A model generated the notes under the pieces. It saw only the letters and a list, made by a program, of their open reading frames with translations. It was not told where the DNA came from and searched no databases. Made by a program: the position numbers and the translations under genes. From IMG/VR virus record IMGVR_UViG_3300021960_000266, positions 1 through 34,505 of that record: DNA of 34,505 bases; one strand, given 5' to 3'. Each line of letters opens with the position of its first letter. Positions within the stretch are counted from its first letter, which is position 1. Positions 7,512 through 33,599 of this stretch are shown here, one piece after another. Source of the DNA: a virus.

Positions 7512-8375
7512 TTAATAACTCTGTGCTAGGCGCCACATCAAATACTCTTTTGATTCGATAGGCGGATACTTTGCTGATTCACCTTTGCGTAGGTTGAATA
7601 CTTGTGTGCCTGGTGTAGGATCTACAAAATGTGGCATACTATAACGCTGTTGATGTATGTGACTGTTGACTACACGATGTTTAGTACTTTTAAAATAATC
7701 GTTAGTCCAACGCTGTAGTAGATCGCCAATATTACAAACAACGCCATTGTCCGCATAGGGTACTGGGTGCCAAGTGCCATTAAGGTCTTGAACTTCGAGT
7801 CCTGGTACATCGTTAATCTGCCAAAGTAAAGTAATAGTACCGTAGTCACTATGTTCTCCTATTCGCATTTGCTTGTTTTCAACAGGTCCGTTATATGCTG
7901 GATAATGAATAACTCTTGTGGTGTTAAACGGTTGCATATGAGAATCTACAAGTGTAGTACCGGTATCTAAAATAGTATCAAACTTTTCTAATATCTTTAG
8001 TGTAAGTTTATCTGCAATGTCGATACTTTGTAGTGCTGTTGCTTTAAATCCAGTTAGTTCAGTAGGCCAAAGGTCTTCTGGCATACGTGTATTGTTGTAG
8101 TTAAAACTTTCTTTAATATCCTTAGGTGCAGTAGGGTCTACATTTTCGTCACCTACCATACTGTAACCTAAATTAGTATCTGGGTTATAAGGATAGTTTT
8201 GCTTTACATCCATTGGCAGTTCAAAGAACGCTTTCATTTGTTCTTGCCAACTTTTCATATCATCTTGCTCTACTGTGTTTAGAGCATTTGTGAACACGGC
8301 GAAGCCTACTGTTGTGTAGGCTTCGTCAATGCGATCTAAAGCGTCTGATGCTTGTAAATCAATTACTGGAATCAT
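7512..8375 (-). CDS. 2-oxoglutarate/Fe(II)-dependent oxygenase, isopenicillin-N-synthase-like
   Basis: The 287-residue protein has a DIOX_N-type N-terminus (IPVIDLQASDALDRIDEAYTTVGF) and the 2OG-Fe(II) core. Iron ligands are His175 and Asp177 in GEHSDYGTITLL and His233 in STKHRVV; Arg244-x-Ser246 (RYS) is the usual 2-oxoglutarate carboxylate clamp. Such enzymes hydroxylate or cyclise small molecules, or hydroxylate bases; the substrate is unknown. Members are common in marine T4-like phages. It is coupled to the BMP gene by a TAATG junction. Confidence 0.9.
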   Translation of the reverse strand: MIPVIDLQASDALDRIDEAYTTVGFAVFTNALNTVEQDDMKSWQEQMKAFFELPMDVKQNYPYNPDTNLGYSMVGDENVDPTAPKDIKESFNYNNTRMPEDLWPTELTGFKATALQSIDIADKLTLKILEKFDTILDTGTTLVDSHMQPFNTTRVIHYPAYNGPVENKQMRIGEHSDYGTITLLWQINDVPGLEVQDLNGTWHPVPYADNGVVCNIGDLLQRWTNDYFKSTKHRVVNSHIHQQRYSMPHFVDPTPGTQVFNLRKGESAKYPPIESKEYLMWRLAQSY

Positions 8376-9454
8376 TAGTTAGGAACCTGTGATGTAATGC
8401 CTTCAACATAAAACATCATAGTGTCTAGTTGCTGTCTAGTTGCTACTTCGCCTTCTTTCAGGAACACTGTTCCGTCTTGCTTGTTAATTGGACCTGTAAA
8501 TCCAAACAACTCGCCTGCGCTAATAGCATCTTTTACACGCTGTGCTTCTGCTTGTACATCAGCTGGCATGTTAGCAAACGGTGCCATTTGTACAGCGTCT
8601 TCGTTCATGTGTCCAAAGTAATCGCCTGTTTCCCATGTACCGTCTAGCACTTGTCCTACTTTCCTAATATAGTAAGGACCCCAATTATCAATAGTTGCTG
8701 TCAATTGTGCGTTAGGAGCAAACTTCATTTGATCACTTGCTTGTCCAAAGCCAAGTACACCAGCTTCTTCTGCCGCTTGTAGTGGAGCAGGTGAATCAGT
8801 ATGTTGTGCTACAATGTCACAACCCTGTTGGATCATAGCCACTGCCGCATCTTTTTCTTTGCCTGGATCATACCATGTGTATACCCAAGTAACTTTTAGG
8901 TCTACATCTGGATTCATTTTCTTTGCACCTAGATAGAATGTGTTGATTTCACGCATAACTTCTGGGATTGGAAATGAAGCAATATAACAAATGGTGTTTG
9001 TTTTTGTCATCATACCAGCAATAATGCCTTGTACGTGTCTTGCTTGATATAGTTTTAAGCCGTAGTTGGCAGCATTTTCTGATTGCTTATAACCTGTAGC
9101 ATGTTCAAACTTTACGTCTGGAAACTTCTTTGCCACTGACATCAGTGGATCCATATATCCAAATGATGTAGCAAAAATAATGTCATTGCCTTGTAGTGCT
9201 AGTTGTGTCATTACACGTTCAGCATCTGCTCCTTCTGGCACACTTTCGACAAATGTAGTTTCTACTCTGTCTCCAAATGCTTCTTCTACTTGTTGACGAC
9301 CAATGTCATGACGATAAGTCCAGCCGTGGTCTCCTGTTGGGCCAACGTAAACGAAGGCTGCTTTTACTTTGTCCTTTGGTTCATCAGCTAATGCTGACAT
9401 GCCGAAATACCCCATCAACATAATCGATGCGGTTAATAATTTAAATAGTTTCAT
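8375..9454 (-). CDS. BMP-family periplasmic substrate-binding protein (PnrA-like)
   Basis: The 359-residue protein has a cleavable signal peptide (residues 1-23, ending SALA) with no lipobox Cys, so it should be soluble in the periplasm. The mature sequence follows the BMP/PnrA family: KVKAAFVYVGPTGDHGWTY, QLALQGNDIIFATSFGYMD, FEHATGYK, YQARHVQGIIAGMM, QQGCDIVAQHTDSPAPLQAAEEAG, QLTATIDNWGPYYIRKV. Family members deliver purine nucleosides (or, in some lineages, other small solutes) to ABC permeases. No permease or ATPase is present here, so it would have to use a host ABC transporter. It heads the operon; SD AAGGAAA. The operon promoter may be the tmRNA promoter, since no other one is seen in the 50 bases between. 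Confidence 0.9.
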   Translation of the reverse strand: MKLFKLLTASIMLMGYFGMSALADEPKDKVKAAFVYVGPTGDHGWTYRHDIGRQQVEEAFGDRVETTFVESVPEGADAERVMTQLALQGNDIIFATSFGYMDPLMSVAKKFPDVKFEHATGYKQSENAANYGLKLYQARHVQGIIAGMMTKTNTICYIASFPIPEVMREINTFYLGAKKMNPDVDLKVTWVYTWYDPGKEKDAAVAMIQQGCDIVAQHTDSPAPLQAAEEAGVLGFGQASDQMKFAPNAQLTATIDNWGPYYIRKVGQVLDGTWETGDYFGHMNEDAVQMAPFANMPADVQAEAQRVKDAISAGELFGFTGPINKQDGTVFLKEGEVATRQQLDTMMFYVEGITSQVPN

Positions 9455-9558
9455 TAAAATGGTTTCCTTTGTGTGTGTGGATGTACTTTAACCTATGTCT
9501 CATCCGTAATAGCAGGCCCGTTCTGTTACCAGGTGGAACCCATACCCTGCTTGCCTAT

Positions 9559-9600
9559 TTAGGCAGCAATTGCCATTGCTGGCGCATAATTGTCATTTGC
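9559..9600 (-). other. tmRNA proteolysis-tag reading frame
   Basis: The resume codon GCA (9598-9600) opens 13 sense codons giving ANDNYAPAMAIAA, then TAA (9559-9561). The AND-N start is typical of alphaproteobacterial tags; the hydrophobic AIAA end is the expected ClpXP/ClpAP-type degron. Confidence 0.92.
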
Positions 9601-9680
9601 AATTATAGTTGTTGACCAATAACGCAGTCATCCGGTAAACTCCACTTCACTACAACACCTGTCGATCCTAGTTCAGCCCC

Positions 9681-9734
9681 ATCAAAAGCACATCCTTCAA
9701 CTTGTAACCAACCTGTTCTTCCAGGATGTGCTTA
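9681..9734 (-). other. tmRNA intervening segment with 10-bp hairpin
   Basis: The segment between mature 3' CCA and mature 5' GGGG folds into a perfect 10-bp stem (9724-9733 with 9686-9695) with a 28-nt loop. Such a segment is removed in permuted tmRNAs. Confidence 0.85.
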
Positions 9735-9800
9735 TGGTGGAGCTGTGGGGTACTGCCCCCCAGTCCAGTATGCGTTCACGTTGCTTCAACGTTTACAGTC

Positions 9801-9831
9801 TATTTATAACACAGATTTAAAAACATGTCAA
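9801..9831 (-). promoter_or_regulatory. Dual promoter for tmRNA: sigma70-like and TATAAATA
   Basis: TTGACA (9826-9831), 17-bp spacer, TATAAA (9803-9808). The -10 is part of an exact T4-late TATAAATA (9801-9808), so both host and late phage polymerase could use it. Confidence 0.75.
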
Positions 9832-9840
9832 CCATGAAAA

Positions 9841-9848
9841 TATAAATA
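9841..9848 (+). promoter_or_regulatory. T4-late-type promoter TATAAATA for the radical SAM gene
   Basis: An exact TATAAATA is followed by 5 bases and then the ATG. With T4 late-promoter geometry the first transcribed base is the A of the start codon. Confidence 0.6.
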
Positions 9849-9853
9849 GTTGT

Positions 9854-10717
9854 ATGAGACGATTTAGTATAGGCGATGCAGCTTTCAATATAAGTATGAC
9901 ATGCAATCTTACATGTGACGGATGTGAAAGTTTTAACAACTACAATTTTAAAGGACAAGTAAAGTTTGCAGACTATGCCAACTACTATAAAGAATGGAGT
10001 AAAAAACTTGATATTGAAATTGTTACTATTCACGGCGGTGAACCATTTACAAATCCAGACATATTGAATTGGGTTGTAAATTTAAAAAAGTTATGGCCAA
10101 CTGCTGATGAGTATTATGTAGCAACCAATGGCACCATACTACGTAACAAGATTAAAGTTGCAAGACAAATTATCGATCAAGGATACTTTATAAATGTATG
10201 TGTTCACGATCCTGAAATGTACAGAGATATACGTGCTCAATTAGAAGAAGTATTAGAACCGTATAACTTTTTAGTACGCAAAATGGATATTGGGTACGAA
10301 TACTACGACGAATACACTGATCAAATATATGGAATATTAGAATACAATTATCATTTTAAGAAAAGCGCCATCGATTATATAAAAGACAAAACATGGTACA
10401 TGCATCGTAGCGATCCTGTTCAAGCATATAAAACTTGTTTAGAAGATCTTAGTCCTTGTAACTTCTTTCATAAAGGATTGTTGTACCAATGTCAATTGAC
10501 AGCATTACGTGATGATTTGTTTTTGCAATTTAGTATTGAACCCGAGGCAGTTGACTTGCTAAAGAAATACAAGTACGGTGACCCATTTGACTCTATGGAT
10601 AAACTACGCAAGTTTTTTAGAACTCATAACTCGCCAATTCCACAATGTACACTGTGTCCAGGTTGCAATGACACACACCCTATATTTCCAATGGCTAAAA
10701 AGAAAATTAAGTTTTAA
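9854..10717 (+). CDS. Radical SAM enzyme, 287 aa
   Basis: The N-terminal strand FNISMTCNLTCDGC carries the CxxxCxxC cluster motif (Cys17, 21, 24) that binds the 4Fe-4S cluster and S-adenosylmethionine. TIHGGEPFTNPDI (58-70) is the GGE motif contacting the SAM amino group, and ATNGTIL is a further core strand. The C-terminal part has additional Cys (TCLEDLSPC, and QCTLCPGC near 268-275) that could bind an auxiliary cluster as in SPASM/twitch proteins. The substrate is unknown; peptide or RNA modification are typical. It stands divergent to the tmRNA, has no SD, and is predicted leaderless. Its stop abuts the stop of the next minus-strand gene. Confidence 0.87.
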   Translation: MRRFSIGDAAFNISMTCNLTCDGCESFNNYNFKGQVKFADYANYYKEWSKKLDIEIVTIHGGEPFTNPDILNWVVNLKKLWPTADEYYVATNGTILRNKIKVARQIIDQGYFINVCVHDPEMYRDIRAQLEEVLEPYNFLVRKMDIGYEYYDEYTDQIYGILEYNYHFKKSAIDYIKDKTWYMHRSDPVQAYKTCLEDLSPCNFFHKGLLYQCQLTALRDDLFLQFSIEPEAVDLLKKYKYGDPFDSMDKLRKFFRTHNSPIPQCTLCPGCNDTHPIFPMAKKKIKF

Positions 10718-11128: not shown

Positions 11129-11136
11129 TATTTATA
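11129..11136 (-). promoter_or_regulatory. T4-late-type promoter TATAAATA
   Basis: An exact TATAAATA lies 5 bases before the ATG of the 68-aa gene, the same spacing as at the radical SAM gene. Confidence 0.6.
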
Positions 11137-33338: not shown

Positions 33339-33599
33339 ATGACTACATTGGTAGCAAACACATTCGAAATGGTTAGACTAAACGGCATTGCTAACTTTTT
33401 CAAAAGACTAGGTGCCGAATTCAAAAGACGCAGAAATATTCGCGAAACAATCAAAACACTATCAGCTCTATCAAATCATGAACTTAACGACATTGGTATT
33501 GCTCGCGGAGACATTTGGCATATTGCAAATCAATCGTTTCCAAAAGCATTAGGCGGCGAAGCTGTAGAAGCAAACCGCAACTTGAGAGGTTGGGTATAA
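33339..33599 (+). CDS. DUF1127-family protein, 86 aa
   Basis: The core RRNIRETIKTLSALSNHELNDIGIARGDIWHIA (about residues 31-63) is the DUF1127 signature (R..T...L..L.D.EL.DIGI.R.DI). The family is widespread and abundant in alphaproteobacteria. Members have been linked in Agrobacterium to growth, aggregation, and carbon and phosphate metabolism, in part through protein or RNA binding (established knowledge as I recall it). Here an N-terminal extension (MTTLVANTFEMVRLNGIANFFKRL) and C-tail are added. It joins the next gene through TAATG. It was likely acquired from the host. Confidence 0.87.
   Translation: MTTLVANTFEMVRLNGIANFFKRLGAEFKRRRNIRETIKTLSALSNHELNDIGIARGDIWHIANQSFPKALGGEAVEANRNLRGWV

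Follow-up and report, generated by a model that had tools for sequence, protein, structure and literature searches.

A permuted two-piece tmRNA gene with a putative fused early/late promoter in a phage genome fragment

Does a tmRNA-like sequence in a phage genome fragment represent a working ribosome-rescue gene maintained by the phage, or a piece of host ssrA picked up in passing? The window analysed here takes in all 34,505 bases of an IMG/VR virus record (a ~34.5-kb fragment from a marine phage), whose genes for NrdA and NrdB, a tail fibre, PAAR, an exonuclease, an endolysin and one virion protein place the tmRNA in a phage setting. The fragment also encodes a DUF1127 protein (33339-33599, Pfam PF06568).

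A permuted tmRNA gene occupies about 9511-9796 on the minus strand (Table 1). ARAGORN calls one permuted tmRNA (tmRNA*) at 9468-9830 (minus) with the tag ANDNYAPAMAIAA, and the Rfam alpha_tmRNA model (RF01849) matches end to end over 9511-9835 (minus) at 133.4 bits (E 1.8e-36), with tmRNA_permuted (RF04321) at 122.6 bits; the curated cut-offs are 50 and 47 bits. Folded alone, the RNA gives z = -3.86 relative to shuffles. The match is not due to chance. The acceptor piece precedes the coding piece and ends in an encoded CCA; its 3' strand pairs with GGGGCTG (9680-9674) at 7 of 7 positions, including G3-U. The T-stem (TGGGG/CCCCA) is paired 5/5 and encloses the T-loop GGCAGTA, the alphaproteobacterial form that is also found in host genes. 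The tag reading frame has the resume codon, stop and -AA end of alphaproteobacterial permuted tmRNAs. A sequence-only reading had proposed just such a complete tmRNA, with the G3-U pair in a 7-bp acceptor pairing; every part that it named lies where it was placed, the alpha_tmRNA search that it called for succeeds, and the acceptor, T-arm and P2 pairings on which it staked the identification all hold.

Table 1. Features of the tmRNA locus and its neighbours in the window
Feature	Position	Strand	Details
BMP/PnrA-like nucleoside-type ABC substrate-binding protein	8375-9454	-	Pfam PF02608, E 2e-48
Coding piece	9511-9680	-	acceptor 5' strand GGGGCTG, P2 3' strand, tag frame, 3' domain with ACCTGGTAACAGAA
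Tag frame	9559-9600	-	ANDNYAPAMAIAA; 13 codons 9600-9562, TAA 9561-9559
P2 outer helix	9796-9791 / 9640-9635	-	GTAAAC / GTTTAC
Intervening segment	9681-9734	-	10-bp closing stem; predicted to be removed on maturation
Intervening end stem	9733-9724 / 9695-9686	-	AAGCACATCC / GGATGTGCTT, 10 bp
Acceptor piece	9735-9796	-	P2 5' strand, T-arm, acceptor 3' strand, discriminator A, encoded CCA (ARAGORN, Rfam, position check)
Encoded CCA	9737-9735	-	position check
Acceptor 3' strand	9739-9745	-	CAGCTCC, read 9745-9739
T-arm	9746-9762	-	within acceptor piece
TATAAATA, putative T4-type late promoter doubling as -10	9801-9808	-	17-nt spacer to TTGACA
-35 element TTGACA, sigma-70 type	9826-9831	-	position check; kept in sibling loci L325, L326, L327, L329, L331
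Radical SAM protein, divergent	9854-10717	+	same neighbour in sibling phages

Two-piece phage tmRNAs have been described before, in the marine T4-like Methylophilales phage Melnitz (MZ577095; Buchholz et al. 2022, PMC9004378) and more widely: among 18,146 phage genomes counted in 2021, 402 had a tmRNA, which was two-piece in 53 isolate phages, 50 of which are aquatic (PMC9004378), a tmRNA database from 2025 has 79 phage entries (PMC11915505), and IMG/VR yields well over 100 distinct two-piece phage tmRNAs. The earlier remark that phage tmRNAs are rarely reported was thus overstated, and the window tmRNA, complete and situated inside a phage genome fragment at a locus common to sibling phages, is a further example of a described type. 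The Melnitz tmRNA, likewise a two-piece permuted RNA of alphaproteobacterial type, scores 106.7 bits with alpha_tmRNA and has the same fused promoter, TTGACA...TATAAATA. It differs in its tag (ANDNYVPVDYALAA), its longer intervening segment (142 nt) and its surroundings, with a glutamine riboswitch just downstream and PhoH region neighbours where the window has the BMP gene downstream and the radical SAM gene upstream. Pelagibacter phage HTVC008M (NC_020484) also has a permuted tmRNA (Rfam, ARAGORN; alpha_tmRNA 83.8 bits), unannotated in its record, but its tag is ANFNEYALAA and no fused promoter was found there.

The suggestion that the phage has a tag of its own stood up as well: ANDNYAPAMAIAA is absent from the 391 Rhodobacterales and 385 alphaproteobacterial genomes searched. 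Nearest to it is the Rhodobacterales tag, from which it differs in Tyr5 and Ile11; among the listed GTDB genome matches to ANDNxAPAMAxAA, all are Rhodobacterales wherever the title is specific to the level of order, family or genus. Tyr5 occurs in such a tag in none of the 385 alphaproteobacterial genomes, and Ile11 in one of the 391 Rhodobacterales genomes (391 being the genomes searched, not those carrying an APxM tag). The ssrA genes of Rhodobacterales (tag ANDNRAPAMALAA or similar) share the permuted form, the T-loop GGCRGTA and G3-U with the window, but have a different promoter, Arg/Lys5 with Leu/Val11 in the tag, and alpha_tmRNA scores of 294-311 bits in three sampled genomes, against 133.4 for the window; the best bacterial relatives overall reach 294-312 bits, and other phage tmRNAs lie in a range similar to the window's. 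The host is not evident from the fragment, and naming Rhodobacterales, as the tag hints, was considered and dropped because the Melnitz precedent indicates no obligatory match between tmRNA type and host.

Across divergent phages the tags keep an AN(D)N start and a hydrophobic-Ala-Ala end, the hydrophobic residue in nearly all and the -AA part being a built-in selection of a tag finder that demanded AA. Ends with Ile or Met, rather than Leu or Val, account for 28 of 111 distinct phage tags versus 3 of 115 Rhodobacterales genes. This shift could point to selective tagging, i.e. host proteins sent to proteolysis for their amino acids, as the Melnitz authors suggest, or degradation changed by the altered tag end. 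However, the Rhodobacterales sample was picked by tag pattern, the phage tags share descent, and a change to Ile or Met is a conservative one. We know of no means by which a tmRNA would choose host proteins, and consider both readings unlikely. In some short phage tmRNAs (L022, L033, L046, L048, L054, L059 and others) the tag begins 47 nt past the 5' end of the coding piece, seemingly leaving no room for pseudoknot PK1.

Conservation was assessed in 133 distinct phage tmRNAs from pattern-fetched viral loci, chosen by sequence anchors and not by pairing. G3-U is present in all 133. The T-stem is 100% paired, versus 72% when 3' strands are re-dealt, and the acceptor stem 99% versus 89%, its first four pairs being fixed on one side because the anchor required GGGG. 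Such re-dealing overstates significance because phage tmRNAs share descent; double changes, which affect four of the five pairs in the T-stem and two of the seven in the acceptor, are nonetheless direct. The end stem of the intervening segment has a median length of 10 bp, versus 6 in shuffles. One tmRNA is interrupted: in a 150 kb record (L436:330-1120, also the source of locus L286) it is broken just past the T-arm by ~600 nt carrying an ORF without known family, followed by a substitute acceptor piece with T-loop TTCGATA and then by a coding piece with intact tag ANDNYAPEMAIAA.

In an unrooted tree (~217 columns) built from 75 phage tmRNAs and 43 from alphaproteobacteria, the phage set falls on one side of a single branch with support 100/100, or 98/88 after 31 AT-rich or low-scoring bacterial relatives were added and three long branches removed; nine low-scoring bacterial genes that could not be anchored were left out. 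A single origin of the sampled phage tmRNAs is favoured by this alignment, though not proved. Because of their separate branch, and of the G3-U, T-stem and tag kept under compensatory change, the sequences indicate that the sampled phage tmRNAs are maintained viral genes and not host fragments. The rival account is an integration scar, in which a piece of ssrA was gained by imprecise excision and lost its function; ssrA often serves prophages as an attachment site. Exchange with temperate phage has been raised for Melnitz by its authors (PMC9004378). Yet the window gene is whole, its promoter has been replaced by a phage-type one, its pairs covary by compensation across phages, and the phage tmRNAs split from the bacterial ones on one branch, so that a scar is most improbable.

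The promoter had been proposed from the sequence as usable by both host and late polymerase. Its two elements are present with a 17-nt spacer, and the fused type, which we define as TTGAC-N15..19-TATAAATA (a sigma-70 -35 with a T4-type late -10), is conserved in many phages. The motif and fixed distance of a T4-type late promoter are seen; the 34.5-kb fragment contains no late sigma factor gene. By the spacing of T4 late promoters, the transcript is predicted to start at 9796/9795, where pairing in the tmRNA begins. TATAAATA occurs upstream of 83 of the 129 distinct phage tmRNAs with sufficient upstream DNA (2.7 expected), accompanied in 76 by TTGAC at -35 spacing. The fused form was found in none of 120 bacterial tmRNA genes and none of 31 further low-scoring ones, two of which have TATAAATA alone. 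Across ~2 Mb of phage loci, the -35 is present at 88 of 95 TATAAATA sites preceding a tmRNA; of the 228 other sites no more than 9 have it, and among these nine a minimum of five do precede a tmRNA, either missed by the regular expression (L035, L037, L067, L244) or interrupted (L286). TATAAT, by comparison, precedes phage tmRNAs at 21 sites, with a -35 at only one. Counted over entire phage records (up to 230 kb), fused promoters number zero to two in each. Since TATAAATA across the window is not above chance (6 versus 3.4 expected), the support for the promoter is the comparative test; a generic sigma-70 scan made no call at the site because it demanded T at -10 position 6.

The fused promoter also precedes a conserved stretch of ~250 nt in L056 (minus strand, plus coordinates ~2667-2400), with a counterpart in L091; it shows compensatory stem changes and a folding z of -3.4, and this candidate phage RNA matches no Rfam family. 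On the minus strand of L278, a second fused promoter and then an apparent remnant of a tmRNA 5' end lie ahead of a lipase-like ORF, with an intact tmRNA elsewhere in the locus. In the window, TATAAATA recurs at 9841-9848 (+) and 11129-11136 (-), each 5 nt ahead of an ATG (9854, 11123). Possibly these are leaderless late genes, which is unproved because an N2 spacing is common across phage loci besides N5 and N4.

Between the RF01849 3' end and the BMP gene, which lies 56 nt downstream, a terminator scan found no terminator-like site, and tmRNA and BMP gene are probably co-transcribed. Six distinct phage loci (the window, L040, L085, L250, L252 and L261) have a BMP/PnrA-like gene immediately after the tmRNA, and porin-like genes follow it in many others; a search for the BMP gene in isolate phages returned only unannotated faecal records. 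Among viral contigs linked by the radical SAM gene, L323-L327, L329-L332 and L334 have a tmRNA in the same position and orientation, with quite different sequences and with tags that differ from the window's. L328 and L333 have no tmRNA at that place, so the gene is not essential to this phage group.

Anatomy, conservation, compensatory change, the promoter association, a separate phage lineage and the absence of SmpB from the phage records examined form the basis for our account of function. None of 17 phage records, among them the complete genomes of Melnitz and HTVC008M, yielded an SmpB gene, so host SmpB must serve. That the phage brings no SmpB would also suit an interfering tmRNA, one that blocks host trans-translation through competition for SmpB or ribosomes; as a precedent, an inhibitory tmRNA without a tag is reported for phage DS6A (cited in PMC11915505). 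An inhibitor would not need the full tag frame, stop and -AA end that are kept in the window and nearly all relatives, however, and interference is very unlikely. We put at roughly 0.82 the probability that this is instead a functional phage tmRNA gene with an early and late promoter, dependent on the host for processing, charging and rescue, and beneficial through sustained rescue. From the same basis we infer its course during infection. The transcript would begin at the acceptor piece, read early by host sigma-70 RNA polymerase and later, from the same promoter, by the phage T4-type late polymerase. Host tRNA-processing enzymes would excise the intervening hairpin, leaving two pieces joined via the acceptor stem, and host alanyl-tRNA synthetase would charge the RNA through G3-U. 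Carried by host SmpB to stalled ribosomes, it would append ANDNYAPAMAIAA and free them, the tagged protein passing to host ClpXP-type proteases. The phage would probably gain from sustained rescue while transcription in the host shuts down and the host's chromosome is broken up.

The window thus adds one more phage that would bring its own ribosome-rescue RNA, and such RNAs appear to be a maintained viral lineage. Newly added here are the separation of the phage tmRNA lineage from alphaproteobacterial tmRNAs, the tie between the fused promoter and the tmRNA, and the Tyr5/Ile11 tag; we found no description of the fused promoter in the open-licence papers searched. The Melnitz tmRNA promoter was described as early only (PMC9004378), whereas the fused promoter predicts expression both early and late. 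We see an even chance that the tmRNA has its own promoter class in a broad set of marine phages, a class nearly missing from the rest of their genomes, with the RNA made from the first minutes through to lysis. If so, such infections would have a core need for ribosome rescue that is continuous and uses a viral tag.
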